64,000 nucleotides of DNA, taken from Halichondria panicea. Taxonomy: Eukaryota; Porifera; Demospongiae; Suberitida; Halichondriidae. How positions within the stretch are numbered: position 1 is the stretch's first letter; the number at the start of each line of letters is the position of its first letter. Shown here piece by piece: positions 3,242-62,465 of the stretch. The notes beneath the pieces were generated by a model. That model made no database searches. It was not told the DNA's origin and was given only the letters and a program-made list of their open reading frames with translations. The stretch lies in the NCBI RefSeq assembly GCF_963675165.1, contig NC_087377.1, positions 4,402,042 to 4,466,041 of the forward strand, read 5' to 3'. A program made the translations under genes and the position numbers.

Positions 3242-3352
3242 TCTAAGTAACAATTATATGCATGTATATCTACTAGGGAAATGATACGTGTAATTGTAAG
3301 CTGCTAAAGGATAGAAGTACATTGTGCACACATACCTGTCATCCATTTGGTG
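3242..3352. repeat. Right copy of the local duplication (partner 1-111)
   Basis: Near-identical to the first 110 bases of the window, with a few substitutions and a small insertion. It begins about 20 bases after the TAA of the exon at 3057-3223, so it is the 3' flank of that gene. A tandem gene duplication of about 3.2 kb would explain the pair. Confidence 0.8.
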
Positions 3353-4900
3353 TGATATACAGTAAGCTATTAAGCACATTCTTGAATATTGTAAATCACA
3401 ATCAATACTTCCTGATATACATATACATGCAGCCATGTATGCACTCTATGATCAATTCCTTTGTGGTCAACTTGTGTTGGTGCATACATGTTATACCTTA
3501 TTACGTAATATTTACTACAATTTAAACCATAATTTGCTGCTGTCAAGTTGTACTTTTGGACTCTAGCATTTATTGTTAACACATGTAACATTTCCTCTCT
3601 TTGTTCATGTGAGCCCCACCCAGGGCCTCCATCACTGTATTTTGTGCTCCTGCAGCCATTTGTACTCACTTTGCTCTCTATCTTATAAGAATTGTTGGCA
3701 CAGCAATAGTGAAGTCAATTTGCACGAATGCTTGCTATAGTTGAGCTACAGTATTTCAATTGCATATAGCGGAATAGAACCTATTTCTATTTAGATCTAG
3801 CCTGTCTAGTATCACTTAGCTAACTATTTGTCTATCCGAGAAAGGGCTCAAACAACTTGTATACTACATTCCCATGCATTAATTCACTTCCTATATATAC
3901 GTACTGTTCACTTAATTGAATGAACTACTGTATAAAGTGGGTATAATTAATTTTAGTATAAAAGTCTGCCTAATTAAATATTTCGTATTGTACAGCTCGG
4001 CATAGTGACGTTGAACGTAGTGCGGTAGAATAATTTCGTAGTTTTAATTTTCGTATTATGCTCTCACAATAATTAATAATTATATACAAATACAGTATAG
4101 AATCTCGCTATTCCGGCTGTCTGAAGTATATGGCCACCTCGTTATATACCTGCCATTTGGTTTGGCACGGAATGCTATATGTTTACTGCACAAAACTCAT
4201 GCACCCTGCATGAAATGCGGCACTCGCTATTCCGTATACTGGCCAGTGCTGGCTGCCCCAAAACAAAGTTTTCAGTATAATTATTACGGCCGGATATGTG
4301 TGGTTTGGCAAATTAATAATAATTATTGGATAGAGAGCAGAATGAATCATTATCTATATAGTTATTCCTTCATTACCCTCGAGGCAGAACCGTGATTAGA
4401 TTCGAGGTAAGGTCGTCTTTTTAGCCGCGGCTATTAATTTTTATGAAATACAGCCACCTTGATATTCCAGCCAAGTTGCACTGTCCCAAGGGTGACCAGA
4501 TTAACGAGAGTCTACTGTATAATTATGAAAATAACCCGCTATACGGTAGATACATGCTTTTTGTGGGTATATGTACCTCCTCTGGTCAGTCATGTGTATC
4601 ACCGTATGCACACAGTTGAATTTTAGATTATTCAGAGAGCTGACTAATCAGCAACATCATTAATTATTGATACCCACCTTTCAGTATAAATAGTCACAAG
4701 TGGGTCTGTCCGTCGTAACACTTGCTGTGCACAGATATAGCTATATATATATAGAAGGTTTAGTTTTTCTTGCATGCTTCTATTAAAGCCATGCACCCTG
4801 AAACTGAATGCAACAAACTAACAATGTGGTTGATAAAAAATCCATTTAAGGGTATAATTTATTATTATGCGAGTATACCGTACATACATGATAGCTGGAC
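3353..4900. other. Intergenic stretch, no gene seen
   Basis: AT-rich sequence with stop codons in all frames. Around 4100-4530 it carries a degenerate dispersed-repeat motif (AATCTCGCTATTCCGGCTGT, later AACGAGAGTCTACTGTA) of the non-coding type common in the window. Nothing else was recognised. Confidence 0.5.
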
Positions 4901-5059: not shown

Positions 5060-6255
5060 TCTGAAATTAAAAATAAATTATTTATACACATTTGTATAAA
5101 AAGTTGAGAATATCGAAAATTAAAACTAAATTTGGTGGGAACAAATGGACACACGATACTCATTGTGAGGGGAGAAAGAGAAGATATTAGAGACATTAAT
5201 TCGATTTGCTGCAAAACGCAACCGATATGACTTCCCCTATATGGTACACAATAGTACCAATTGAATCAGTTTGATCAATTTAAAGCTAAGTTCCAAGTTC
5301 AACTTGACAACAATTCATTGTTGTCGAAACTAAAACATTATTATTTCCACCATTGTTTTTACTGTAAATAGCTTTCTTTGTATAAAATTATGTATAATAC
5401 ACTACTCAATCATAATAATTACTTGTTTCACAGAATTAAAGTGTGTTTATAACTGCATGGAACAAAGCATATTTCCCAGCTCTCATTGCAGTGAAGTATA
5501 GTGGCAGCACCATGAAACGTTTGTCCGAACTCCAGAAAGTTAGAGTATACCTCTCCTGCTCTTACTGTATACAATAATACATGCATGGTAATCTAGTTTG
5601 AAGTGCTCTAAGGCACAGCTTAGGTATTAGGAAGTGGAACACACAGTATCTTTTTTTGTCTTGTGTGATCGGAAGAGATAGCATTGAAAGACTTGGGAAC
5701 CGGCAGACCAGAGAGTACTGAGTACTGACACCCCCTTTGGAGCTCACTTCCTCATCACTTTGCATAAGTAGCTCATTACTAGCCTATGTCTAAGTGTATC
5801 TGGTGTCTCCTCAAGAGCACAGCTTGCCATAATACTGCTATAAAATCATCACTGGCATTTTGAGTGCACACACCCCTTTATGCTCATTACGCGCCCCTCT
5901 CAGAGTAGGTTGGACACGATCACGTGCACCACTTTTTTGCTGAGCTGGCACAGAAATTGACAAGGATTTTCTATGAACTTCTAGCTAGCTGGTGTTGGAC
6001 GATCATTGGAGACTGAAGGCAACATTTATGTATCTCTCTGGCTACTTTGAATATAAAGTATTCATTAACCAACCCGATCCCTAGCGATCCCCTCTATTCT
6101 GGCGAGTTATCAGTGCATACAGTGTTTACTAGATTCTTGCCAGCCAGTACAATGCAAGCTGCATACAGCACCGCTGAACTATACTCTACCCTATAGTCTA
6201 GCTAATCTTGGTCCAGCCAAACAACAGACACAGCTAGTCCGGTGTTACAAGTCAG
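5060..6255. other. Intergenic stretch, no gene seen
   Basis: AT-rich non-coding sequence. A minus-strand open frame of 67 codons at 5562-5765 has no recognisable domain or splice context and is not called. No RNA gene was recognised. Confidence 0.4.
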
Positions 6256-7639: not shown

Positions 7640-9590
7640 AGTCCTTAGCTAAGCCTCCAAGCCACTAGAGGAAGGAAAGTCAAACCCACACTAGACTGAG
7701 CAGCGTTAAAAACAACGTCACGGATGGCGTTGTGACGGCTGATACGGTTGCTGTTGCCCCCACATCCCACCTGGTGATCACCAAGGGAGTCAGCAACACC
7801 ATGACACTCAGGGCAGGTGAACTGGTCATTGTGCAGCAGGACATGAGCGGAACTCACGATCTTGGTGGTGAAGTTCAAGTGAGGGAGAGGGGATTACATT
7901 TAGCCAGTCGTGAGCATGAGGGAGTCCAGTGGAGAGGGCCAGTGCTCGTGACCTAGTGATGGTGGCTGATTCTAACAGGCTCTTCAGCACGGATTCATCA
8001 ATGGCAGCAGAAAGGGCTTCCTGTCTGAGGGGAATATCGATATCGATCTGCCAGTCAGGACGAGCAGAGGAGGAGGCAATGGCTGACACTGTTTCATATA
8101 AGAAGATCGAGGGGGGAGGAGAGCGGCCTAGAAGTCCTTCAACCAAGGGAGCTGAGCAGAGAGATGAGTCCAAGTGTATGCAGCAGGAGCATGAGGTGGG
8201 GCGCTACGCAGCCCAAGCCCTCCTTTACTACAAGGGAGGGATGCCTTCTGCCACGACCAGTCCGATAAAGGGAACAATGGAACAGTCAAAATCATGAGCA
8301 GTATAGTGCCAACGGCGACCCGGGGGGGGCAGGCCCGGAGCCTAGGACTGAGACAACTTTGGGAAGTGCAAGGCATGAGCGAAGCAGAGTGGTTTGTGCT
8401 TGGGAGTCTTCAAGGGTGTGGAGAAGGTTGTTTGATCTTGTCTACACGAGTTTGAAATGAAGCCTCACAAAAATCAGGGGGTCCGACTGGGCAACCGAGG
8501 AGCGAGAAGCCTTCACGGACTATGGGGATAGCCGAAGGAAGGCAAAACCAAGGGGGCCTAAAGGATCCCCTTGTTGAACTCCGCTGCAGCTGAGTAGGGA
8601 GTGGCTTCCCAGCAAAAGGTTGGGATGGTTGGAGTAGCAACCATCCCAACCCATGCAGGGGGAGAGAGAGGGAATGTGCTTTCGGAACTCCTGAAAACAT
8701 GCTTCCCCGATCGATGGCATTAGTAAAATCGACAAGGAGAGTCCAGCACCTGTCACTGGGGCTTGAGGAGAAGTGGCTGGATACTGCGTGGATGATTGCT
8801 TCGCAGCCCCCTTTTGCGCCAACGCCCAGCTAGTTTGGGAGAAAGTGGGGAAGAGCAGTGGGTCGGGTCGAGAATTCGAGGCATTTCGAAGTGAGCCAAC
8901 GAAGAGACACCGATGGCAATCGGGCGCAGGCCTCTACACTTCTTCCTAATAGTAATCAGAGTTGCCCCACAGAGGTGAGGTATAATGGTGGGTGGCAGGT
9001 TTACCATGCTAGTTAGAGAGAAGAGCAGCCTATATTCGTTTGATCGGGTGACGGGCAAAGGACAGCCTCACGGAGGTGGCTAGGGCGGAGATCAGAGAGA
9101 AATCCAGGGGGAAATCTTTTTGAGACAGTTGACTCAATTAATTTGATTGGTGATGAGGTAGGGCCAGGGGGAACTGGGGGTGCTTGCTTAGCATGTCTTT
9201 CAGGACCATTTTGTCAGCTGGGGCCGCTCCCGCTTTTCTGTATATTGGCCGTTCTGAGTGGCATGTATATATAAGGCCCTTTTGGCATTTTGTTTATGGA
9301 GGTTCGTCGGATGTTTGTGATGAGAGGCTTGAGCTTGACTACTCTCCACTGCGTCAGTCCAGAGGCCTAGGCAGTCGCCATCCTCCCAACGTTTGAGGCG
9401 AGACTTTACTAGCTTAAGGATTTTTCTCCAGCGGAGGCGATGGCCAGAAGCAGGGCTTGCTAGGACACACTTGGCTAGCATAAGCAATTTCAGCCAGAGA
9501 GTAGAGTCAGTTGGGTTGGCGACAGTGGATGAGAGAGAGGTATATATACTCAGAGAGGAGTCTCGGGCGTCGTTGGGGACATGATGGAGA
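7640..9590 (-). pseudogene. Degenerate non-LTR retrotransposon (R2-like, restriction-like endonuclease type)
   Basis: Pieces of one minus-strand protein appear in order, in shifting frames. The first is an N-terminal segment (9200-9487) with RLKRWEDGDCLGLW. Next come reverse-transcriptase segments with GLRPIAIGVSSL (about 8940) and the RT box GVQQGDPLGPL (about 8580). The C-terminal part carries a zinc-knuckle-like motif, CPECHGVADSLGDHQVGCGG then NSNRISRHNAIRD (about 7715-7812), typical of non-LTR elements with a restriction-like endonuclease. Frameshifts and stops separate the pieces and no FADD box was found, so the copy is dead. The segment just upstream of its 5' end (9573 onward) recurs at 12328. 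Order and motifs are seen; the clade is an inference. Confidence 0.7.
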
Positions 9591-24770: not shown

Positions 24771-25125
24771 TATGTAGCTTTTGGTACCTCCACCGAGGCA
24801 TCAGCACCTGCGGTGCTTTCATTATCTTGTCATTATCAATAACAATATGCAATTACCGGACCGGATGTGATTCATTGCCAGCAATTGCCATTGTATTTTG
24901 GACACTATTGTTCTAGCATCCTGTCTAAATATTTGTTCTATTTATATGAAAATTCAAATATTACTCAATCATTTTAACTACTGCGGAAATAAATGCTACT
25001 ATAGACTATTGTAGTGCGTGCGCAAGATCTTCGCTGAACTAGCTACGTTCACTGCACTGGTGCTGGTGAGTAATATTATTGTTTACCTGTTGGTTGAGCT
25101 CATGTAGACTTCTGTGGTAGATTCT

Positions 25126-25266
25126 ATCCTGTGGCAGATCTCTCTAGTCACTGTTACAGGCCGGTACAAGTAATAACAAAATACTGAGCATGCAGTACTG
25201 CCAGCTCAGTATTTTGTTATTACTTTTACCGGCCTGTAACAGTGACTAGAGAGATCTACCACAGTA
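25126..25266. mobile_element. Palindromic MITE-like hairpin
   Basis: The left arm TGTGGCAGATCTCTCTAGTC to AACAAAATACTGAGC is mirrored by GCTCAGTATTTTGTT to GACTAGAGAGATCTACCACA, with a loop of about 14 bp. The arms are about 60 bp and nearly perfect. It lies 70 bp downstream of the end of the minus-strand ORF at 25335. It is either an independent insertion or an end structure of the cluster; no mirrored partner was found near 31 kb. Confidence 0.8.
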
Positions 25267-25334
25267 AATAATTATATAGAACAGTACAGTATAGTAGTCA
25301 GTTCTCAGTCATATTCTTCTCAGTCCTGTTCTAG

Positions 25335-25712
25335 TTACAACACTTTTACTAAATTAAATTTAACTTTCTTTCTTGGCTCTTTGTTGTCCGCTTCTTTTGT
25401 GCTTTCTTCTTTTGTTTTTTTGGCTCTAAATCCTAGCAACGTGTAGTCTGGATTTAAAACTTCTGACACCTGGACATCGTATGTTTGGCTGAGCCTCACA
25501 ACTTTCTTTAAATAGTTCTGGGCCTTTTTCTGAGACCCCATCGGAAAATAATGTGTTCCAGTATCATCTGCTGTTGTAAAATAAAATTGTTTTCCCTCAG
25601 TTCCCATCTTTACTAGCGACCCAATAGGAAAGGAGTTCCTGTGGTGCCTGATCTCTCGTAAGTCGGAGTCGATGTAGTACGGGTACGGGTGGAAGTGGCA
25701 GCAATTTCCCAT
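25335..25712 (-). CDS. Unrecognised 125-residue protein with MGNCC start
   Basis: I do not recognise the family. The ATG at 25712 gives MGNCCHFHPYPYYIDSDLRE and is preferred because a Gly-2 followed by cysteines resembles a myristoylation/palmitoylation signal. A start at 25862 would add 50 residues but would stand only 15 bp from the divergent ATG at 25878. The middle (GSLVKMGTEGKQFYFTTADD) looks like short beta strands. The C-terminus is Lys-rich (RAKKTKEESTKEADNKEP) and ends VKFNLVKVL. No intron is needed. It is divergent from the chromodomain gene and part of the packed 25.3-30.9 kb cluster, whose joint origin is an inference. Confidence 0.5.
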   Translation of the reverse strand: MGNCCHFHPYPYYIDSDLREIRHHRNSFPIGSLVKMGTEGKQFYFTTADDTGTHYFPMGSQKKAQNYLKKVVRLSQTYDVQVSEVLNPDYTLLGFRAKKTKEESTKEADNKEPRKKVKFNLVKVL

Positions 25713-25877
25713 CTCAATTCTTTCTCTGTTCTTTTTTGTATAGTAATTTACTGATTCACATGACAGTAATAGCATGCAATCAATGGTAGTAAAGTGTGTC
25801 AAATGAATAGAGATAAAATCTTTATGGTCACTAATTATTAATCTTCCAGCAGACCTGTTCATGCAGATCGACCTGTT
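25713..25877. promoter_or_regulatory. Short divergent intergenic region
   Basis: Only 165 bp separate the two start codons at 25712 (minus) and 25878 (plus), so both genes probably share a bidirectional promoter. No TATA box is obvious. The inference rests on spacing and orientation alone. Confidence 0.35.
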
Positions 25878-26702
25878 ATGGACTCGTCAAAGAGGCAACG
25901 ACCTGAGAAAGGATACTATTCCTACCTCCATAATATAAGCTCGGCTGACATGGACTTATCTAGCATGCGGGAAGCACGAGATGTGAGAACCACTCTGAGC
26001 TGTAAGTCTGATGACAGTCTGCCAGAAGGGGTCTTCCTTGTTGAGAGGATAATTCATCATCGACTAACTAAGGTACGTAACATTTTATGATATATAGCCC
26101 TATACGATTGATTCTATTTCTAGGGGAAAACGGAGTATTTGGTAAAGTGGGCTGGTTACTCATTGGAACAGTCTTCATGGGTCGCTAAGGAAGATGTGAC
26201 TATCTCTACTATCCAGTAAGATTATTAAGTATGGCATGGCAGTGCACTGTGTATTACTATAATTATATCTGCACATTTCCCCCCTTTCAGATCATACAAT
26301 ACACCACAAGCACCACATACCGAGCTTATAAGCGACGCAACAAGAAGATTTGTTCTGTCCATTCAATGTAGTTTAAATTTAGGTACTGTAAAATCCTGTA
26401 ATTTAACTATAGATTTCCGGCTAGATGTATTTCGTTACCTATTTAAAGATCGAGGAACCCAAATGACCCGCGGAAAGCTCCAACTTCAACAAACTGATTT
26501 TAACGATGAATATTTTATAGGTAGTTGGTATATTTTGTATGATAGATATGGCAATGGCTGCACAGTAGATTTTCCTATTGTAGTATGTCCTAGAATTAAG
26601 TATGGACCGAAAACATATAGAAATAGCAATGGTGAAATGTTAGAGTCACCTAGACTACTATCTGAAATTGTATGTGTAAATCTGGTGAAAAAACGTTGTT
26701 GA
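25878..26702 (+). CDS. Chromodomain protein, three exons, 232 residues
   Basis: Exons 25878-26072, 26124-26215 and 26291-26702 join in frame (699 nt, stop TGA). After a basic start (MDSSKRQRPEKGYYSY) residues 50-92 form a chromodomain: EGVFLVERIIHHRL, then EYLVKWAGYSLEQSSWV. The VEKI-like strand and the YLVKWxGY and SSWV aromatic-cage positions are all present. The C-terminal 130 residues (SIQCSLNLGTVKS, YFIGSWYILYDRYG, GPKTYRNSNGEMLE) are not recognised. Chromodomains bind methylated histone tails and also occur in transposon proteins. Introns are 51 and 75 bp. The gene is divergent from the MGNCC ORF and convergent with the kinase gene; its role in a mobile element is inferred. Confidence 0.7.
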
Positions 26703-26990
26703 TCATTGTTAATTGTTAATTGTTAATGCATGCATGGCCCAACCTGAGCAGCCAATACGCACTATGTGACTCATAACTAACTGCTTCAGGCCAATTCTCT
26801 ACCATAATGCTTTTAATGACTCTCAAACAAATGGCTGGGTCAACACGCATCCCGACTTACAGCTAACCTTGTCAGCCTTCCATTAGAGAGCACGGATTTG
26901 CCTACAATTATACATAGACTATGTCATAGTTAAAGCTAGCACCAGATTTAAACATGAACGAATGAATGTAAGACATAATTAGTCACATAG

Positions 26991-28117
26991 TCATTCAACA
27001 TTAAGAGAAATGGTTTCTAAGCTAGGACGGTCATGAGCATGATAAGAAAGACATTCCTTAATTACATGGGCAAGTTCAGTTGACTTAATTACAATGGAGT
27101 TCATCTTCTTCATTATTCTACCTAATGAGTATATATCGCTCTGTGTGCTCTGTAAAACAAGCCCATCGCGGAGGTCTGGAGCTACTTGAGTGTGTTCTTT
27201 TATGTAAATAACTTTCTGTTCCTCGGTCAGGCAGTACTTCTTAGCATGCTTTTCTTTACATGCCTTTCCAAAATCCACAATACATGGCCGGATACATTCT
27301 AACAAAGTAGTCCCTAATACTACGTTGTCTACTTTAAGATCATTGTGAAGAATACTCAGCTTGTGCATGTATGATAGACCATCACAAATTTGGATCAGTA
27401 TTTGCATCCATGTCTTAGGGCTTAATTTAATTTCGTTAGTCGAATACAAGGCAGAATATAATGAAACTTGTTGCTGCTTCACGCTTACATTAGACATTAC
27501 TAAAGCTCTCCTGGTGGAACAAATACCAAAACAGTGTGGTATATAAGGGCTGGAATTTAATGTAAGTAATATACTGGCTTCATGCCTAATCGATTCGATT
27601 GAGGAGTCGGAAGTAAATGTTTTGACACAGACGTCAAAACACTCTTTAAAAATCATACGAGAGCATGTTCCAAACCGACCATTTCCTATATGAACATCAC
27701 CACCCCCATCTGCTAAACATTTCTCACTTATCTCTGGAACTACAGTAACTCCTCGCATAATATCAGCATTCGTACACATTCTTGGAGTTGCCTTGGGTAG
27801 ACTGATTGCACTCGTCTTCATGGCTGCTGTTAGTAACTTTAGTGGTCGTTGGTGACTGCAGGATGTTCCCAGAGTTCCTGTCCGTAATTGCTTAGCTCGA
27901 TACACGTTGAGTTCCCTGTATGAACAATATTATTTACTGGCTGTTAATCAGCAACTTACAGTTTATAATCTATTGCCTTCTTCTTCCAATTCTGAACATT
28001 TTTCTCGGCACATTCAAGGCTCTTCTTCTCCATACACAGCTGCTTGCCAATTTTGTCAACTCTAGCTTTTCGATTGAGCCTCTTGAGCTTGGATCTTGAG
28101 AATGTCTGGTCAGCCAT
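26991..28117 (-). CDS. Protein kinase, two exons, 360 residues
   Basis: Exon 28117-27960 joins exon 27915-26991 across a 44-bp intron (donor GTAAGT, acceptor ATACAG) without breaking frame. The first 50 residues are basic and coiled-coil-like (SKLKRLNRKARVDKIGKQ). The kinase domain has its Gly loop GNGRFGT (about 130-136), Lys 151 in VCVKTF, Glu 165 in HEASIL, catalytic LHNDLKVDNVVL (Asp 245, Asn 250), VDFGKAC (Asp 267), APD in place of APE, SDIYSLG and HDRPSL. Every catalytic residue is present, but HRD reads HND, so activation-loop control may differ. Ser/Thr versus Tyr specificity cannot be told; DLKVDN suggests Ser/Thr. It is divergent from the DDE-like gene 214 bp away. Confidence 0.8.
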
Positions 28118-28331
28118 TTTGTAATAAGTCTAAGAGAACCAGAGGTCGCAAAATACCCGCCATAATGCATCTGAGAAGTGTTATCATGCTATTGAATGAG
28201 TACTGTGGTTAATTTAGTGGGTGATAACACCGCAGCCTATTCACCCGCCCACTCATATTGACATGGCTAATTAATTTTGTTACATAACAGCTCAAGGGAC
28301 CTTTTGTTCCATTATCCCGGGCCTCCTAGCT
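28118..28331. promoter_or_regulatory. Bidirectional promoter region between kinase and DDE-like genes
   Basis: 214 bp lie between the two divergent ATGs (28117 minus, 28332 plus). The stretch includes a CACCCGCCCACTC GC-box-like string. Shared promoter use is inferred from the head-to-head arrangement. Confidence 0.4.
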
Positions 28332-30911
28332 ATGGCAGTAAACAAGCAGTCCAGAAGAGCAGAGAGCCTGTCCATCACCATCTCAAATTCAGCAAAGAAG
28401 TACTCTGACTTCAGCCACACAGAACCACAAGTACAGCCAAACTTCTCTCTCTCTATTCCTATCGAGTTGCTGCATCATTGGTACATGAACAAGAAGGCAG
28501 AAGAGACATTCATTAGCTTAGTTAATAGCATGGTAACAATAGTTAAACTAGCACAAAGCGATCGTCTGGAGAAAAGGCTTGCAGAACAAGCTAGCAAGGT
28601 AGCAAGAAGGATACGGGGGCTAAAAGGAAGAAGGAGGTATGCCGTACTTGCTGGAGAATACAACCTCTTCGTGCTTGATGGAGAAGCAGAATCGTATTCT
28701 GAAATTGAGCAGCAACTATCCACTGAATCTCCACAGCCAACAACAATCCCCGAAACAAGTAGACCTACCACAGCACACATCAACAAAGGCAAAAAAGTTC
28801 ACGAGGTATCACCACGACAGGTAAAACGAAAGCTAGCACACTGTAAGAGCTCTGCAGAGCAAGCGCTTTGGTTTTGTGAATCATTCGGTCTTCAGCCAGA
28901 ATCTTTAGAGCTACGCAAACAGACAGGATCTCCCATCAAATTCAATTTTTTATCTAGCCCATCTCACAAGCCACAACATCAAACGCCAGCTCTTTCACCA
29001 AACGATTCTGCGAGGGTACAGCAAGCTCTTTATGTACTTGACAGGTTTGCTGTGAGTGACGAAGCTTATCATGAATTGAGCGTCGCATCTGATTTACCAC
29101 CACTGTACCGAATCAAGGATGCTCGCCTCTCAATTAACAACTCTCTCGACATCCGACATCTCGAAGGTCCTTATCCTGGTGCTTATAGACCACCGAAAGC
29201 TGCAATCCAGGAAGAGCTAGCTAAGATCGTAAGTAAAGAAGAAATTATACATTATTATTATGGATTATTATTTTAGGTTCATTCAGGGAAAGCTATCACC
29301 CAACCAGTAAAAGTAAAACTCAGTGGTGACGGAGCCAGATTCACAAGATCATCCAATATCATACTTCTCTCATTTGCATTTCCAGAAATTCAAGACAATG
29401 TTTTATCAGGCATGGGTAAGCTTAACAATAAAAATATTAAACGAGAAAGTGGTGAAAATATTTTTATATTGACATTCATACAGGCAATCATACTTTTGCT
29501 GGCCTAAAAGCCGAAGAGTCGTATGAAACAATTAGTTCAGGACTATCTGAGGTATTGAAGGAGTTGAACGACATCATTTCACACCCACTACTCACTGTTG
29601 ATGAAACAGAGTACCGCCTTGAGTTTTTCCTGGGTAGTGATTACAAGGTGAGAATGTATAGTTAATTACTGACTATAAAAATTGCATTATTAGTTTCTTT
29701 TACTGAGTATGGGCCTCAACAAAGCAACCTCTATGTACGCTTGTGTCTGGTGTACCATCAAGAAGGATGAAAGGTATATCTATAATTATTATATGCTTAA
29801 ACCTAGCTTCCCCATTTGCCGCTATAGGTGGGATATGTCAAAGGATAGGGCTGACTACACCGTAACAAATGCAAGAACATTGAGTTCCCTACAAGCAAAA
29901 GGCGCACTTCCCAGCAGTAAACCAGCAAGTGTACGACTAGGATCAATTACAACACCACTACTGAACATAGAGCCAGACCATATAATACCCGATGAGCTAC
30001 ACCTACTCCTACGTATAGCTGACGTTTTAACAAGAAATCTCATTCTAGAGATAGTGGCATCTGCTAAACAAGACAGACAAGGAAACGCACATATACTCAC
30101 TCACCTACAAACACTACAGACGATCGTTAAAGACTGTGGTATCACGTTCAGGGTATGGGAAGCAAGGGGTCCAGATGGCAAAGCTTCTGGACATTACGAA
30201 TGGACATCACTGCAGGGGAACGACACCAAGAAGTTTCTGGAACGTCTCCCAGTGAGGTTTGCTGACCTACTGAAGGAAGAAATTCAAGCTAAAATGGCCC
30301 AACTTTGGACAGTGAGTACTAATTAAATTTCCCTTCGCATTTTACAAACATAATTATTTATATGGTCTGGCTCTATAGGAATTTCTCTCTTTGTATAAGA
30401 TGGTTTCTAGCTGGACTCCACCTCCCAGTGAAGTGGTTGAGCAAAAGGTATAGTGTTAGTTTACTAGTAGGGAGAACCATTGTATCTAATTTACTATAAT
30501 CTATCATGATAGGCGAAAGACTGGATAAGGCTTTTCTTGAGCTTGAAGCACAAGTGTCAAGGGTTTCAGGAAAAGAATATTACGCCCTATATGCACACAC
30601 TGGTCTTTCACTTCCCTTACTTTATTTCAAAATACGGAAATGTCAAGATGTTTAGTGGACAAGGTGAGTTCGAGTGTAAAGAGATAACATTTTAATCACC
30701 TTTTTCTCTAGGGGTGGAGAAAAATAATGATGACGCCAAGAGACACTACTTCTCCAGTAATCTGCATGACCCAGTGGGGGAGGTTCTGAAAGCTGAAGCG
30801 AGAATAGACGAGACATCACAATTTAAGCGAAAGAAACGAAAGTACATACGAAAAACTCCATTAGATTTAGTAGACATGAACAAACAGCCACGACTTGACT
30901 CTGAATCATGA
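28332..30911 (+). CDS. Eight-exon gene with DDE-like residue pattern (putative transposase-like protein)
   Basis: Exons 28332-29228, 29277-29415, 29484-29647, 29694-29773, 29828-30311, 30379-30447, 30513-30663 and 30712-30911 join in frame (2184 nt, 727 residues); introns are 46-68 bp. The first 300 residues are basic and polar. The conserved-looking core follows: KLSGDGARFTRSSNIILLSF (Asp 317), FFLGSDYKFLLLSMG, YACVWCTIKKDERWDMS with a CxxC pair (417, 420), IEPDHIIPDELHLLLRIAD (Asp 482) and KMFSGQGVEKNNDDAKRH (Glu 664). D...D...E spacing with an H after the second D and a late E in an EKNN context resembles an RNase H-fold transposase. That reading is an inference; I cannot name the family. 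The tail is basic (KRKKRKYIRK), possibly nuclear-localising. The cluster genes may act together. Confidence 0.7.
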
Positions 30912-32160
30912 TTAATTCTACCCAACATAATAATATAGTATACTATATATCCTGATAGATTGTACACATTTACTATCTTCAAGTAAATGACTGCTAGCCT
31001 ATACTTACTTGCAGCCATATACACTCACTTTACATTGCTGGTACATTGCGATTAATGGGGAATTCCCCAAATTAGTGGCTCTACGCAGCTCTTGGGTATG
31101 TGTAGATAATGCGATACGTCATTGATAATTGTGGATTTTTTGACAAAACTGGACACATTTTGGAACCGCTTAGTCCACTTTATATCGAGCAGCAGCCGCT
31201 TTAAGCAGCAGAGTAGGCCGTATATTTTTGCTGGCAATCGGCAAAAATGAAAATATATGTGTAAGAATGCCGCAAATCAAACACAAAAATACAAAATAAT
31301 CAAATTTTACAATACAATACACGAGACAAGCGCTGAAACATTGATCAACAAAAGCAGTTAGGGAACTTATACAAGCTGGCTGGCTAGCTTCTTGTGGGAT
31401 TCCAAGGTTAGCTAAGGTGTATTTCTTCTTCTTTGTATCGGCAAATCAACTGAAAGTAGCTCCCTACAAGGGAAAAAGGGAAGCATAGCCTTTGGTCTCA
31501 TAAGAACACATATAAAATCATACCGTAATATACAGAAAATTACTAACTGATTTACTGACATATTTTAATTGGTGTCCAGTCATTGCTGGCAATGGCATGT
31601 ATTATGAATTGCTGTACAAACTCTAGTCACTTTATAACAGCACATCATACGATTATGTTGAGTATGATACATAATTAAACGTTGATAGACTATAGCTTCA
31701 TTGCTTTCATGTCTGACTCACGTATACTGACAGGTGAAGGCAGTATGGGCAGCCCTCCCCCCCAATAGACTGCGACTCAAACCAAATTAAATTTTACACG
31801 CATTAAATCTTTTACTAGAGTATAATTACGTATAATATTTTATACGCAGGCGCCTCGTGGGAAGCTCTTTATGTTGTTACAGTATCTAAATGAAAGAGGT
31901 ATTATTAATACATCATGTATACAAGAGAAAATAACTGCATGGCCGATTAAGTAGCATAGCCATGTTCTAACTGATTTAGATCCCAAAAGTGGCAAAACCT
32001 ATTGGCTATTACAAATGCACTATAATTAAAGCTAGCAACAGTCAACCTAATAATAAACAGTCGACGTACATCATTTCTTCTAATATCTGAAGTTGGCATC
32101 TCTGTGTCTCTACTAAATCTGTGGTCTCTATATCAAATCAACCCTGTTCTACCTCAGTTT
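30912..32160. other. Intergenic stretch, no gene seen
   Basis: AT-rich sequence with no convincing frame. If the cluster is one mobile element its right end should lie here, but I could not find an inverted partner of the sequence left of 25335. Confidence 0.4.
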
Positions 32161-47934: not shown

Positions 47935-48430
47935 CTTGCCAGTCCTTGTGGTTTATTAGACTCCTCCCACACTGTGGGAGCGGCCTTCGATGTGGACGAG
48001 CCTGTGCTTTTTTTCCTCTGCTGTGCTGTACTGTACCCCACTCCCCCCCAGCACTTAATGATATTTATAACACTATTGTGTGGTCGGAGCGCTCCCATAA
48101 TGGTATTCATAGTTGGTTTGTGGTTAATTAGGCTCCTCCCACACTGCTTTGAAGTGGACGAGCCTTTTCCTCTGCTGTACTGTACTGTACCCCCTCCCCA
48201 GCACTTAATGATATTCATAGCGCTGTTATGTGGTCGGAGCGCTCCCATAATGGTATTCATAGTTGTCATGTGGTTAATTAGGCTCCTCCCACACTGCTTT
48301 GTTGTGGACAAGCTTTTTCCTCTGCTGTACTGTACCCCCCCAGCACTTAATGATATTCATAGCACTATTATGTGTTCGTAGCGCTCCTATAATGATATTC
48401 ATAGTCCCTGTGGTGTATTAGGCTCCTCCC
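47935..48430. repeat. Tandem repeat, about 3.3 units of 150-165 bp, upstream of the piggyBac ORF
   Basis: Each unit holds GTGGTTAATTAGGCTCCTCC, CCTCTGCTGTACTGTACCCC, CAGCACTTAATGATATTCAT and GGAGCGCTCCCATAATGGTA. Open frames within it are repeat artefacts. It ends at the GT microsatellite (48440-48472) that precedes the transposase frame. Confidence 0.85.
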
Positions 48431-48439
48431 GTTTCGTGC

Positions 48440-48474
<35 letters not shown>

Positions 48475-50047
48475 TGACGACGAGGACACAGAAGACAGAG
48501 GAGGAGGAGGAGGAGGAGACAAGCTGGTGGATGGTATGGCTCCAACTCCGGAACAAAGGAAGCTGGCAAGGCAGGATGGATTACGAAAAGCTAAGTCCAC
48601 TGGGAAATATCCCGAGTTCAAGGGTGTAGTTGGTGCTGCAGATAAAGTTAACCCCTCTAACACTATAGACTTTGTGAAACTATTGTGGCCAGATAGCTTG
48701 TGTGAGCACATAGCCGAGCAAACAAACCTGTATGCCACACAGTGTGGTGCTAAAAGTTGGAAGGGTACACATAGAGACGAGATTTGGGTATTTATTGGCA
48801 TAATACTGGAGATGGGTATTCATAGGCTCCCCGAGTATACTGACTACTGGTACACAAATCGGCTCTTAGGAGTACAGGCTGTTAAAGACACCATGCCTTT
48901 CAATAGATTTAAATCCTTGCGGCGCTATCTCCATTGTGACGACAATACGTGCATAGTTGATAGCAGAAAGATAACAAGCAAGATACATACAGTTTTGGAA
49001 ACGCTCAGTACAAACTACTTGGCCAAATATCATCCTAGCCAAGAGCTTTCCGTAGATGAAATGATGATTAAGTACAAGGGTAGAAAAGGGGGTAAAATTC
49101 ATATGCCCAGAAAGCCTGTAAAGCTAGGTTTCAAGGTGTGGTGCTGCTCTTGTTCTTGTTGTGGGTATCTATGTACGTTTGATGTGTATAGTGGTAGGCT
49201 CACCGGTTCTTCCGGGAAAAAGGTGTCAGAGAACGGACTTCTGGTGAGGATAGTGAAGCAATTAGTTGAGCCTTTTCATACAATGAATCATGTGGTCTAC
49301 ATGGACAACTTTTATACATCTGGTCCGTTGATTGTATACTTACGTAAGCATGACGTATTCGTAGTGGGTACAATGAAAAAGTCAGCCGCTGGTTTTCCCT
49401 CAGGTGTGGTACCTCATAAAGGTGAGTATGTATCTAAGACTGTGGATGATATCTGTTACTTTGTGTTCAATGACCGTAAGGTGGTGTGTTTTGCTACTAA
49501 TGTATTTCCTGAGACAATGCCAGACGCTGTGTTCAGATTGCAGGCAGATGGTACTCTATGCGCACAGAGTGTTCCCCCTTGTCTCCCTACCTATAACTTG
49601 TATATGGGAGGGGTTGACAATACAGGGCGTATGAGGAAGACGTATGGATATGATAGAAAGTGTCGCCGGTATTGGTTCAGGATCTTGTTTCATTTTGTGG
49701 ATATTACTGTTAATAATGCGTATATTCTGTACAAGCACAATTGTGTGAGGGTAGGTGAAAAGCCTAAGTGTTTGAAAGGGTTTCGTTTGGAAGTGATTGG
49801 TAGTCTGTTGAGTATGTCACGTACATGTGCTAGAGGTGTGTCTGGTCTCAACCTTGGTAATCCTCCCTCGCAGGACATCCGTGTGAGTGTCAGCAGAGTG
49901 GGACTGAGCAGAGGTAGATGTCAAATATGTGTGCAAGACAGGATACCCAGCAAGGAGCAAAAGCACACAGCAATGGCTTGCCCCAACTGTACCATCAGGA
50001 TCTGCCATGAACATGCTATTATATTGGACATCAATGTAGTAAACTAG
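48440..50047 (+). CDS. piggyBac-like transposase (intact ORF)
   Basis: The open frame runs to TAG at 50047. Its first 12 codons are the translated GT microsatellite; the in-frame ATG at 48536 (MAPTPEQRKLARQDG) is a better start for this exon, or an upstream exon supplies the acidic N-terminus. The DDE_Tnp_1_7 hallmarks are present: WVFIGIILEMGIHRLPEYTD, ELSVDEMMIKYKGRKG (Asp 206), HVVYMDNFYTSGPL (Asp 289), NLYMGGVDNTGRM (Asp 393) and YWFRILFHFVDITVNNAY. The C-terminus has the cysteine-rich finger CQICVQDR...MACPNCTIRICHEHA. The family cuts and pastes at TTAA. No frame break was seen, so the copy is young or domesticated. TTAA-flanked terminal repeats were not identified. Confidence 0.9.
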
Positions 50048-58109: not shown

Positions 58110-59528
58110 TGAGTGCATAAAGTTATATTATAGTTATATGGGTTGGGTATATGTAAAATAGGCCATGCAAAGTCATCACGCATCAAATTTGGCACTCTGC
58201 CAAAAAAGTTAAATATAATCACGTGACCCTCATTAACGACGTGCAATTACTGCCTTGATGACCGCATGTTCAAATAACAGCCGCGGCTAATGCAGCTAAA
58301 AATGTCCTTAAAATTACATCACAAACGATTAATAATCATTGTTGCATGTTTGAGCAAAAGATCAAAGAAACCACAGTGCAAATAATATATGGCATATTGC
58401 ACAGTGAAGACAGGCACATCAAAGCTAACAAGTCACCGCAGTGCAATATACCATATATTTGCACAGCTTGAACAAAAGTTGGAATGATCTTGTTCCTACA
58501 ACTCACTTTTTTGTGGTATCAAAATAAGGAATGCAGAAGGCATGAATCTCATTATAAGTATACTTTTCCCACGCAACAAATCAGTTATTGCATATAATCA
58601 CTAGTGCAATATCTGGCATATTGCACTGTGGTCATGCAATAACTAATACATACAGTCTACACTAAGACTACAAATTTGGCTTCAAATGATGTAATTGTGG
58701 TTTTGCATCATAGAGTAAATTTCCTTGTGGTTACATAACAATTCTGTTTGTGGCTTGTAAATACTACAGTAATTCTCCGTAAATTTAATTATGGCTTCTG
58801 ATACGTCACTGTTTACTATAAAGAAACAACTTTTTTAGTTTTTCCAGCATACATACCCAGGTCCTGAAGTGCAAGCCAGGTTCCAGAGTCACAGTACTAT
58901 AATAGCTATAGTATATTCATGAACTGGCCACAGGAAAATTAGGATCCAGAACTGGGGAGTACTAATTTGCCCAGAAATCAAAGTCACCAAACAGGATATA
59001 TCCTAGCCAATGTTAGAACACAAGACCTGCTATAAAAAAATTTTGGCAAAGCGGATGCTGTTTATTTCTTTGCAACTAGCTATCTAGGCAGTTTCAAGAA
59101 ACTCTGGACACTCAAGTGGCAAGTAGGCAAGAGCTAAACTTACTCATCTTTGTCAATGCTTACTTTGTTGTATCTTAGTCAAACCTGGGTCATTAGTGTT
59201 CTACTTGTAGTTACCAGTGTTGTCGATAGTCTAGGCCTATCTGTATCTGTCCAGCACCCCCCAGTACTGATTTCCCCAGAAATCAAAGTCACAGAAAATT
59301 TATATCACCAGTTTTCTTTCATTCAATAATTATTATAACTATTCAGTTCCTTCTTACCACTTTATTTTTATATCATTCAGTAGCTTATTTATTCAGCATT
59401 ATTTCTATATCATTGAAAAGTTATCCTTGACAAAAGGAGTGTTACTGTTTTCGTTACTACCGTGAACTATGAATATCATTAACTCCCATAAGGGGCCATA
59501 TAAATTGACAAATGAACTGTATAATTAT
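58110..59528. other. Stretch without a recognised exon
   Basis: Contains several copies of a GCAATATNNNGCATATTGCAC-like motif (58385-58465, 58605-58640) and AT-rich unique sequence. If the CYLD-like exon is live, this is intron. Confidence 0.4.
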
Positions 59529-60303
59529 GGCGCTCCATTTGTTTCATTATTCAATAGTGAAAAATATTGTCAATGCCGAAATATGTTGACAATGATGTAA
59601 TGTGATTGTCAATAATTGGGTTACCTATTGTCAATGATTATCCGATTCATTGTCAATAACTATCGTCATGTTTGTCAATAATTGGGTGCCTATTGTCAAT
59701 AATTATCCGATTCATTGTCAATAAACTATCGTGATGTTGTCAATAATTGGGTTGCCTGTTGTCAATGATTATCTGATTCATTGTCAATAATATCGTCATG
59801 TTTGTCAATAATTGTTGGAATTATTGTCAATAATTATCATCATTATTGTCAATGATTGCTCAATTTTATTGTCAATGATTATCATCATTATATTGTCAAT
59901 GATTGCTCAATTTTATTGTCAATAATTATCATCATTTATTGTCAATGATTGTTCAAAGTATTGCCAATAATTATTCACCCGTTTTTATTCGATGTCCCTG
60001 CTCCATTCCGGAATGGGTCACCATATTTTACTGCGCATGCGCATGAACTACCAAGAGCCACGTGGCAGGAGTTGACTCACTGTACACGTACACAAAAAGA
60101 CCAGAGATTAAAGACTTACTGCAATTAACTCACGACCTCCCCAGAACACGTACTGCAGGAAGCTTTAGCAAGGGTCTTGAAGTCGAATGGCAGCCAACGA
60201 GCAGGAAGCTCAGGTAAAATAACTCTGATATATATAAATTAAATTGTACTATGGTTGCACCAAAGATCAAAGGCTTCAGTTGTAGTTTATACTACTTATA
60301 CAA

Positions 60304-60372
60304 CCTGTCTGACCACAGCCATGGTATATGGCTGTTATACCCTAGTGTATAACAGCCATATACCATGGCTTG
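60304..60372. repeat. Palindrome inside the foldback element
   Basis: GACCACAGCCATGGTATATG GCTGTTATAC is mirrored by GTATAACAGC CATATACCATGGCTTGTGGTC around CCTAGT. Arms are about 30 bp. Confidence 0.85.
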
Positions 60373-60570
60373 TGGTCAAACTACATGTACAGCTAGAACT
60401 GAATACAGTATCCCACCTTTGCAACAAAATTGACACACTGTTTCAATTAAAACAATGACACACTACTCAATTCAATCAATATTAGCAATATTAGAGCTAT
60501 ATAGAGAGACTCCAATACAAAACAGACTACTAATGATTTTAGTCAACATAAAAAGAGCCAAGTTCGAGCG

Positions 60571-60903
60571 ATGAATAGTTCCAAAAAGGAGGCAAATTTG
60601 GAAGAACTCCGTGAACCGAACGATACTGGTTTGTTTGTGTTGCTTTTTTTCAACTTTCAACATTGGTTGTCACAACCTGCTTATTACATTGCTGCATGGG
60701 ACCAGGAGCATGGGTCCAGACTGCCAAGTGTTTCTCAGACTAAAGAGACTGCACTGCACTGGGCCAGTACAGTAGGCTTGTGGAATGATATTTTCGGGTA
60801 CATTTGCACTCTTTGTAGACAAGTAGCACCAGTGTACTTTCTTGAAGTGCCTTCTATAAAGATGCAGAAACACAGCCTTCACAATTGCTTGCTTGAATCA
60901 TAG
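60571..60903 (+). CDS. Hypothetical 110-codon ORF inside the foldback element
   Basis: MNSSKKEANLEELREPNDTG begins an acidic, Lys-rich segment, then FVLLFFNFQHWL and a mixed remainder ending HSLHNCLLES. No domain was recognised and no TATA, splice or conservation support is available. It could be a chance frame. Confidence 0.2.
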   Translation: MNSSKKEANLEELREPNDTGLFVLLFFNFQHWLSQPAYYIAAWDQEHGSRLPSVSQTKETALHWASTVGLWNDIFGYICTLCRQVAPVYFLEVPSIKMQKHSLHNCLLES

Positions 60904-61064
60904 ACGCTTGCTTGAATCAGCCATCGCTTTTTAAAAAGATAGCAAATTCATTGCATAGCTATAGCAACAGTGACGTCAAACAGTAGTTATAAGCATATTC
61001 ATTGAAGAAGCATGACAGGAAGTAGCTAAACATAGTAGTACAGTTCTAAACATAGTACAAGCCA

Positions 61065-61202
61065 GTTAAACTATGGCCTCTCGTGGTGTATTTGCTTTAC
61101 ACGCTCGAGTAATCAGATAAACCAACTCGGCTGCGCCTCGTGGTTTATCAGATTACTCTCGCGTGTAAATCAAATATACCACTCGAGGCCATTGTTTAAC
61201 TA
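61065..61202. mobile_element. Palindromic MITE nested in the foldback element
   Basis: TTAAACTATGGCCTCTCGTG to AGTAATCAGATAAACCA is mirrored by TGGTTTATCAGATTACT to CACTCGAGGCCATTGTTTAA. Arms are about 58 bp with a loop of about 18 bp. Confidence 0.8.
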
Positions 61203-61924
61203 TAACTTATACTACACTAGGCCAGCTAGCTATGTACATAGTAAGCTTCCTGCTCGTTGGCTGCCATTCGACTTCAAGACCCTTGCTAAAGCTTCCTGCA
61301 GTACGTGTTCTGGGGAGGTCGTGAGTTAATTGCGGTAAGTCTTTAAAGTTCATGCGCATGCGCAGTAAAATATGGTGACCCATTCCGGAATGGAACAGGG
61401 ACATTAAATAAAAACGGGTGAATAATTATTGGCAATACTTTGAACAATCATTGACAATAATGATGATAATTATTGACAATAAAATTGAGCAATCATTGAC
61501 AATAATGATGATAATTATTGACAATAATTCCAACAATTATTGACAAACATGACGATATTATTGACAATGAATCAGATAATCATTGACAACAGGCAACCCA
61601 ATTATTGACAACATCACGATAGTTTATTGACAATGAATCGGATAATTATTGACAATAGGCACCCAATTATTGACAAACATGACGATAGTTATTGACAATG
61701 AATCGGATATCATTGACAATAGGTAACCCAAGTATTGACAATCACATTACATCATTGTCAACATATTTCGGTATTGACAATAATATTATTTTTCACTATT
61801 GAATAATGAAACAAATGGAGCGCCATATATAATACACACTTCCGGTGTAGACTGAATAGTATGGCTATATACTCGTGCAATAAGGGATCCATATTGCACT
61901 CTCAATCATACTATTAATCAAAAC

Positions 61925-62465
61925 TAAAAAACATTTGCAATGTGAACGTTGCTAGGATTGCCAGGAAAAGAAAAGTGCGAAAAAGCGAAGAAACAAGAAA
62001 TTCGGCGAGTGCAACTCCAATCCGTTACAACGTCATTCACATGTACTGTTTCAATAAGTTATAATTATTATTTTTGTTTTGGTACTTTCCTGGCCAATCC
62101 TTTCACATTGCAAGTTATATAATTGTAGTGATGTTAATTATGTGCATTTTTTGCAGGCTATAGTTATGTGTTTATGACTCCCTTACAGTGTTGAGCAAAC
62201 ACGCAAGTGTTGGATGTGTGGGTGGAAGTATTCCAAGTTATTCATGACCAGCATGCAGATACCAACCTGTATTTCGATTTTAAAATTCCTTATCAACAGT
62301 AGGCCACTCGACTGTACATGTTCATGACGTTGTAACGGATTGGAGTTATGCACTCGCCGAATTTCTTGTTTCTTCGCTTTTTCGCGCTTTTCTTTTCCTG
62401 CATGGCAATCCTAGCAATGTTCACATTGCAAATGTTTTTTAGTTTTGATTCCCTTTCTTTTTTCA
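61925..62465. repeat. Inverted repeat related to 6890-7010
   Basis: AAAACATTTGCAATGTGAAC to CCGTTACAACGTCAT (61929-62035) is mirrored at 62325-62440 (ATGACGTTGTAACGG to GTTCACATTGCAAATGTTTT). A related one-armed copy is at 6890-7010. The minus-strand open frame of 61 codons inside is not called. Confidence 0.7.

Follow-up and report, generated by a model that had tools for sequence, protein, structure and literature searches.

A recently active four-gene DNA element of the sponge Halichondria panicea with its own kinase and chromatin-reading protein

A compact cluster of four genes in the genome of the sponge Halichondria panicea is a complete, recently active DNA element of about 6.7 kb, which carries its own kinase and chromatin-reading protein and inserts without target-site duplication. 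The cluster lies in the window, a stretch of 64,000 nucleotides of contig NC_087377.1 (assembly GCF_963675165.1) whose numbering is used throughout. We assign a probability of roughly 0.8 to reading the element as an autonomous DNA (class II) transposon with a putative DDE transposase, zero-stagger joining, and an accessory chromodomain protein and kinase. The original prediction was that the cluster could be one mobile or domesticated element. Mobility is strongly supported by 20 loci, shared exact ends, empty sites and recurring gene neighbours; domestication is not supported, the copies being nearly identical and dispersed.

Ends, copies and insertion sites

In a BLASTN comparison with 19 fetched loci, the limits of the shared block fell within a few bases of positions 24873 and 31594 in most of them, and both limits carry the same perfect inverted repeat (Table 1). 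The termini read CATTG..CAATG, that is, 5'-CA..TG-3'. With at most one mismatch allowed, the terminal inverted repeat matches twice in the 64 kb; over 100 shuffles the mean was 0.13, and a single shuffle also gave two matches. No terminal inverted repeats had originally been found outside 25.1 or 31 kb; the cluster as first delimited falls short of the true ends by about 0.5 kb at its left side and 0.7 kb at its right. Alignment of full clusters, which had been proposed as a check, yielded exact common ends within the sponge's own genome, and comparison with the empty sites shows none of the target duplications that were also to be sought. The palindrome near the left end has arms that are 91% complementary with a spacer of 0 nt, and its DNA fold scores z = -18.9; of the 19 fetched loci, 17 have an inverted self-match for its core (25129-25264), which is partial in L022 and absent in L027.

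Table 1. Features of the element, in window coordinates
Feature	Position	Strand	Details
Whole transposon	24873..31594	.	6722 bp; BLASTN against 19 fetched loci; end sequences exact in 16 copies, the window's among them
Left terminal inverted repeat CATTGCCAGCAAT	24873..24885	+	13 bp, perfect; subterminal TGGACAC at 24899
Near-perfect palindrome	25121..25272	.	76-bp arms; downstream of MGNCC gene
MGNCC gene	25335..25712	-	One exon, 125 aa
Chromodomain protein gene	25878..26702	+	232 aa; exons 25878-26072, 26124-26215, 26291-26702
Protein kinase gene	26991..28117	-	360 aa; exons 28117-27960 and 27915-26991
Region between divergent kinase and transposase starts	28118..28331	.	214 bp
Putative DDE transposase gene	28332..30911	+	727 aa, eight exons; spliced model
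Further TTGCCAGCAA motif, right side	31228	-	
Subterminal TGGACAC near right end	31572	-	
Right terminal inverted repeat CATTGCCAGCAAT	31582..31594	-	13 bp, perfect

The genome holds 20 loci of the element, 16 of them (window included) with both ends, which lie in one piece in the window and 13 fetched copies and are split by nested insertions in two more. Between the window copy and these complete copies there are 0-18 substitutions, with none at all in L009, L013 and L018, and all four genes are intact in 10 of the 16. The MGNCC gene is found at 20 loci, at 12 of which it is full-length with a 100% identical protein. Searches with the end sequences for non-autonomous derivatives returned few partial matches beyond the known copies (on contigs C9 and C3) and no large population.

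Nearly all DNA transposons leave a short duplication of host DNA when they insert. Paralogous empty sites could be aligned for nine insertions, and in seven the two flanks meet with no base gained or lost; the remaining two show a one-base difference beside the joint, in 89-92% paralogues. In L009 and L014, the reading frame of the joined empty-site sequence is open across the joint. Direct repeats flanking 15 insertion sites occur at chance level, and the targets are mixed and share no core sequence, position -4 being the main mark. Target flanks had full-length paralogues in at least 9 of 12 cases, against at least 3 of 12 random window segments (Fisher P = 0.04; 40 candidate places scored of 4018 and 1844, with a small control from one window), which is only suggestive of an insertion preference for repeats.

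Gene content, relics and related kinases

The four genes at 25335-30911 have the order and orientation originally described (-,+,-,+), with spliced models open from start to stop, gaps of 165 and 214 bp between divergent starts, and ten introns that measure 44-75 bp, all below the 80 bp first stated. The larger gap, between kinase and transposase, is the site of other insertions in copies L012 and L018. The calls of a chromodomain and a kinase also held. The chromodomain (residues 54-99; Pfam Chromo, E = 2e-12) has that of CBX2 as its top PDB sequence match (1.6e-7). The kinase matches Pfam Pkinase (PF00069, E = 8e-22), with LRRK2 as its top PDB sequence match (9e-9); by eye, its domain is TKL-like, with G-loop, VK, HND, DFG and APD motifs, and its N-terminus is basic and coiled-coil-like. 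The MGNCC protein gave Pfam matches at noise level only and no NCBIfam match; its N-terminus would presumably permit N-myristoylation and palmitoylation.

The earlier description of the fourth protein as DDE-like finds no support in Pfam, where matches up to E = 10 are noise, nor is there a PDB sequence match, but candidate residues can be recognized by eye: D317, D398, C417xxC420 (CVWC), H639x4H644 (HTLVFH) and E664. Its 727-codon frame is open in 15 of the 16 copies. A protein query found no relatives in the viral contigs and prokaryote genomes searched; similar unannotated proteins are probably present in cnidarians and sponges.

The gene set can be followed into relics. The older relic L041 keeps chromodomain (+), kinase (-) and transposase (+) genes, which are 39-58% identical in amino-acid sequence and saturated at silent sites; its transposase is 49% identical and retains D, D, C(2)C and PDELH, and the MGNCC gene was sought there and not found. 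L049 retains the E, the H(4)H stretch being disrupted in the alignment, and L043 preserves the chromodomain-kinase-transposase order in reverse, its transposase being represented by the 5' part. Other relics keep parts of the gene set. The younger relics have dN/dS of about 0.6-0.8 (0.18/0.29 for the L043 kinase, 0.36/0.46 for the L042 transposase), as expected of dead copies, and constraint is therefore argued from L041 and L031 alone, in which silent sites are saturated or nearly so.

Related kinases occur elsewhere in the genome. From 43 matches (E up to 1e-8) we condensed 15 loci by hand, after setting aside the copies of the window family itself and the five matches in a cluster at 541-592 kb of contig C9, and compared them with 27 Transposase_21 matches and, as a control, 30 KDZ loci from 59 matches. 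Four of the 15 kinase loci, two of which form one duplicated pair, lie within 7 kb of an EnSpm Transposase_21. The clustering with Transposase_21 over 15-25 kb may in part be an effect of regions rich in repeats; the KDZ control gave 0 of 15. The L044-type elements among them have a kinase that is 33% identical to the window kinase and can be aligned with it over the catalytic domain, probably over the N-terminus too, and the sequence ..CTGTG near their presumed end. They differ in that their transposase is detected by PF02992 and that kinase and transposase genes are convergent, on C1 and C3, rather than divergent. Two L044-type kinase copies on C1 stand at a constant offset of 39942 bp, with every one of the 6001 compared bases matching, the pattern that segmental duplication would give.

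Known transposon groups and alternative explanations

The lineage most likely belongs in or beside the CACTA/EnSpm-Mirage-Chapaev-Transib (CMCT) clade, which includes Plavaka. CACTA elements carry repeated subterminal motifs, and so does the window element. The marks of the clade given in PMC12730594 are CA..TG termini and, in the stretch from the second D to the E, C(2)C and H(3-4)H; the window element has the same termini and, by eye, C(2)C at 417-420 (also in L041) and H(4)H at 639-644, ahead of E664. In contrast, the clade makes target duplications of 2-5 bp where the window element has 0 bp at seven of nine empty sites, and it is the window element that adds MGNCC, chromodomain and kinase genes. 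Transposase_21 (PF02992) has 27 matches in the genome and none in the window element, and in an hhalign comparison of the transposase with one EnSpm fragment of the same genome, the score was equalled or exceeded by 15 of 60 shuffles. The Kyakuja-Dileera-Zisupton (KDZ) group was considered and rejected, PF18758 having 59 matches in the genome and none in the element. That a kinase is not a usual cargo, as originally remarked, is fair but not absolute: the TET+ IS3EU transposons of rust fungi, as described in the same paper (PMC12730594), carry an alpha-kinase gene, opposite in orientation to the transposase as here, along with a TET/JBP gene and 6-bp duplications, whereas the window element has a conventional eukaryotic kinase (PF00069), a chromodomain protein and 0 bp.

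That four host genes were copied by segmental duplication has a negligible probability, since homology ends at the same sequences in the 16 complete copies, which have different flanks and are spread over eight contigs, and since there are empty sites. Seamless insertion would also be explained if an outside enzyme, whether a recombinase of the tyrosine or serine type or the transposase of a different transposon, moved the element with its four genes as passengers. Cryptons and other recombinase elements typically duplicate 0 bp, and the 727-aa protein has no recognized transposase domain; yet perfect terminal inverted repeats with CA..TG ends, the open frame in 15 of 16 copies, candidate D, D kept in L041 at 49% identity and E in L049, and the want of a common core at the targets make this reading improbable. 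Among the eukaryotic DDE transposons described so far, Spy-like elements are, to our knowledge, the only kind to leave no target-site duplication. Membership of their group (PIF/Harbinger-ISL2EU-Spy) would account for the lack of duplications shared with Spy, as described in PMC4482050, but is very improbable: that paper gives AAATTT as the Spy target, found at 0 of 16 insertion sites here, where targets are mixed with position -4 as the main mark, and the four-gene element's transposase is not recognizably related, with no Pfam match to a PIF/Harbinger-type transposase.

A last alternative concerns the kinase, which could be a host gene captured incidentally, with no part in the life cycle of the element. 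Its frame is broken in five of the 16 copies and therefore the kinase is not strictly needed in cis; four of the five share one altered length and near-identical sequence, and hence a lineage with a broken kinase was still able to spread. A cluster on C9 consists of kinase matches with 23-25% identity, which may be host genes. Against this stand the conservation of the catalytic motifs between the window family and L041 (dN 0.35, silent changes saturated), the recurrence of the chromodomain-kinase arrangement in L041, L043, L031 and L052, and the related kinases near a second transposase type (EnSpm Transposase_21), and we regard incidental capture as unlikely.

Proposed mechanism and significance

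On the autonomous-transposon reading, the 727-aa protein would be a DDE transposase that binds terminal and subterminal TTGCCAGCAA and TGGACAC motifs, excises the element and links its two 3' ends, with zero stagger, to target phosphates that face each other directly, perhaps slightly favouring targets with a purine (mostly G) at the fourth base to the left of the joint. The chromodomain protein may read methylated histone tails and thereby steer or protect the element in host chromatin, and phosphorylation by the kinase, which could be supplied in trans, may tune the transposase, the chromodomain partner or host repair. Tentatively, at somewhat short of even odds, we propose an undescribed superfamily-level lineage that combines zero-stagger joining at almost any sequence with a regulatory kit (kinase, chromodomain reader, possibly membrane-anchored MGNCC), the kinase being old, selected and shared with EnSpm-type elements. 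Our literature search found no paper on a DNA transposon that carries both a conventional kinase and a chromodomain protein; the family may already have a name in Repbase.

If the proposal is true, we know of no earlier cut-and-paste transposons that bring conventional protein-kinase signalling of their own. Integration by opposite joints without stagger is, as far as we know, almost undescribed; DNA transposons are defined and found by target-site duplication, and a DDE-type element leaving none may escape routine pipelines. The near-identical copies and clean empty sites make this element a tractable test case, and a transposon-borne conventional kinase and chromodomain protein would offer a direct test of how phosphorylation serves a parasite in controlling transposition and chromatin.

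A recently active four-gene transposon

The four-gene cluster is a real multi-gene DNA transposon, recently active and inserting seamlessly. The genes lie where the original prediction had placed them (see table), with 165 and 214 bp separating the divergent gene starts and with ten introns of 44–75 bp each, and its proposal that they form one mobile element is borne out by 20 loci, shared ends and empty sites. Queried with the MGNCC protein, the 131-Mb genome from which the window comes gave 21 matches, distributed over 20 loci; 12 are full-length with 100% identity. Comparison of the 19 other loci with the window by BLASTN delimited a block common to most of them, about 24873–31594. Both element ends are present at 16 of the 20 loci, in one piece in the window and 13 other copies and split by a nested insertion in two (L012 and L018); the other loci, L020, L022, L023 and L027, have undergone truncation or rearrangement. 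The ends are formed by perfect 13-bp inverted repeats, CATTGCCAGCAAT, with TGGACAC just inside them, and an extra TTGCCAGCAA is located close to the right end. Main-alignment identity of the complete copies is 99.4–100%. Relative to the window copy, L009, L013 and L018 carry no substitutions (L009 shows small length changes) and the greatest count among the 16 complete copies is 18, which points to recent activity. The nested insertions in L012 and L018, ~10.5 and 11.7 kb long at element positions about 3283 and 3351–3356, both fall between the kinase and transposase starts; that in L018 shows a 6-bp overlap resembling a target duplication.

Features of the element and of the surrounding window
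Feature	Position	Strand	Remarks
MGNCC gene	25335-25712	-	
Chromodomain gene	25878-26702	+	
Kinase gene	28117-26991	-	
Long gene (putative transposase)	28332-30911	+	
Long palindrome	25121-25272		near-perfect; inside element, 3' flank of MGNCC
Two overlapping open stretches	8413-8933	-	resemble remnants of reverse transcriptase by eye; Pfam gave nothing at E 0.01
Open frame, 487 aa	21620-23080		IgGFc-binding domain, E=4e-24
Open transposase	48422-50044		Pfam DDE_Tnp_1_7, E=2e-67; piggyBac-type
Element with very long inverted repeats	59526-61827		made of repeated TTGTCAATRATT-like units
Second pair of inverted repeats	61916-62450		follows the preceding element

Alignment of several full clusters, suggested in the original prediction as a way to find shared ends and target duplications, yielded the former but not the latter: no consistent direct repeat was found in the flanks of 14 copies. 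Counted at 15 sites, leaving out the TG-repeat site L026, flanks matched in four cases at one base, none at two, one at three and none at four to ten. Joined flanks of 12 sites were compared with the genome, 40 of 4018 candidate places being scored, and at least nine sites have a paralogous unoccupied copy, of which one was aligned per site. Seven of the nine (L009, L010, L011, L014, L021, L024, L025) join base for base without gain or loss, a mismatch adjoining the joint in L021, and L015 and L016 show a one-base difference beside the joint relative to paralogues 89–92% identical; for L013, L017 and L019, no unoccupied paralogue was among the matches listed. L009 inserted into a repeated unit, and the reading frame is open through the joint in the joined flanks of L009 and L014. 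The targets are marked mainly by a purine at −4, found in all 16 sites and being G in 12 (P ~1e-5 for this one position, assuming 22% G and without correction for having inspected 20 positions). Both mobility and zero duplication of the element are well shown. Duplication-free insertion, at AAATTT, is described for Spy elements (PMC4482050), and an alpha-kinase gene in TET+ IS3EU elements of fungi (PMC12730594); the literature searched, Repbase lying outside it, gave no account of the present combination of genes and insertion.

The encoded proteins

Ten of the 16 complete copies have every one of the four genes open (counted singly, chromodomain 16, transposase 15, MGNCC 15, kinase 11). Four of the five broken kinases share one changed length in near-identical elements, indicating that elements with a broken kinase have spread as a lineage, presumably aided in trans. 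The TKL-like kinase appears by eye to carry active-enzyme motifs, and its closest sequence match is LRRK2 (E=9e-9). The chromodomain matches those of CBX/HP1 and, read from the alignment, has F, W and Y at the aromatic cage positions, of which chromodomains as a rule have three. Sequence and domain searches gave no convincing relative of MGNCC, and the roles of these three proteins are hypothetical. A transcript of the palindrome beside MGNCC would form a hairpin of roughly 70 bp that might feed or block small-RNA silencing.

Searches of Pfam and PDB with the transposase gave no match. Among old relics, L041 keeps the candidate catalytic residues D317 and D398 as well as PDELH and, at 417, the C(2)C, and L049 keeps candidate E664, its H(4)H at 639 being disrupted. 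PMC12730594 gives as marks of the CMCT clade the order D-D-C(2)C-H(3-4)H-E, CA..TG ends and duplications of 2–5 bp; the window element is like these transposons in residue order and ends but makes no duplication. In our comparison with an EnSpm fragment of the genome, similarity was not statistically significant. Judging from sequence, the transposase may resemble those of the CMCT clade in mechanism and be related to them; we infer its DDE chemistry and clade, and do not file the element there because the duplication is lacking and the similarity is not statistically shown.

Age of the gene unit and a second kinase-bearing lineage

The relic L041 (contig C13) contains chromodomain (+), kinase (−) and transposase (+) genes in the order of the window element, with amino-acid identities to the window family of 39, 58 and 49%, respectively, over alignable codons. 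L043 (C3) is a degraded copy with the L041-type order reversed, in which just a 5' portion of the transposase survives; the distinct L042, about 10 kb from it on C3, is a transposase relic of opposite orientation. Chromodomain and kinase pieces stand face to face in L031 and L052, and L030 is a divergent MGNCC–chromodomain pair. The L041 kinase has dN 0.35 with silent sites saturated, and the younger L043 and L042 have dN/dS of about 0.6–0.8, as expected of dead copies; since relics contain stops, such estimates mix selection with later decay. From these relics we conclude that the chromodomain, kinase and transposase genes constitute an old travelling unit rather than a one-off capture. Membership of MGNCC is seen only in the window family and L030; it was sought in L041 and not found. 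At C13:2548078–2548188 of the genome (G000) there is a sub-threshold match to Transposase_21, the EnSpm-type domain (E=0.007), ~3 kb from a window-family transposase relic at C13:2551154.

The next nearest full-length kinase, at locus L044, is 33% identical to that of the element and alignable with it over the catalytic domain, the N-terminal alignment being less sure (3 of 1000 shuffles as good). Repeated homology stops at L044:5713 relative to a C2 copy and at 5698 relative to a C3 copy; this stop and the sequence ..CTGTG at 5713 make an element end there likely. Positions 1–2160 of L044 are a separate repeat of ~2.16 kb with many copies, mostly 85–94%, apparently nested beside the kinase. 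Of 15 kinase loci, four (including one duplicated pair) have Transposase_21 <7 kb away and eight have it <25 kb away, the expectation under uniform placement being 0.04 and 0.15 loci, and KDZ loci, used as comparison, are near none of the 15. Kinase and transposase face each other on C1 and C3, and their remnants in L053 lie on one strand ~1 kb apart. That this proximity reflects regional clustering of repeats is a residual possibility; we read it as suggesting that the kinase is common to CMC-type transposons, through descent or exchange. A cluster of kinase matches at C9:541351–592709, 23–25% identical to the L044 kinase, may consist of host genes that were the source of the transposon kinases.
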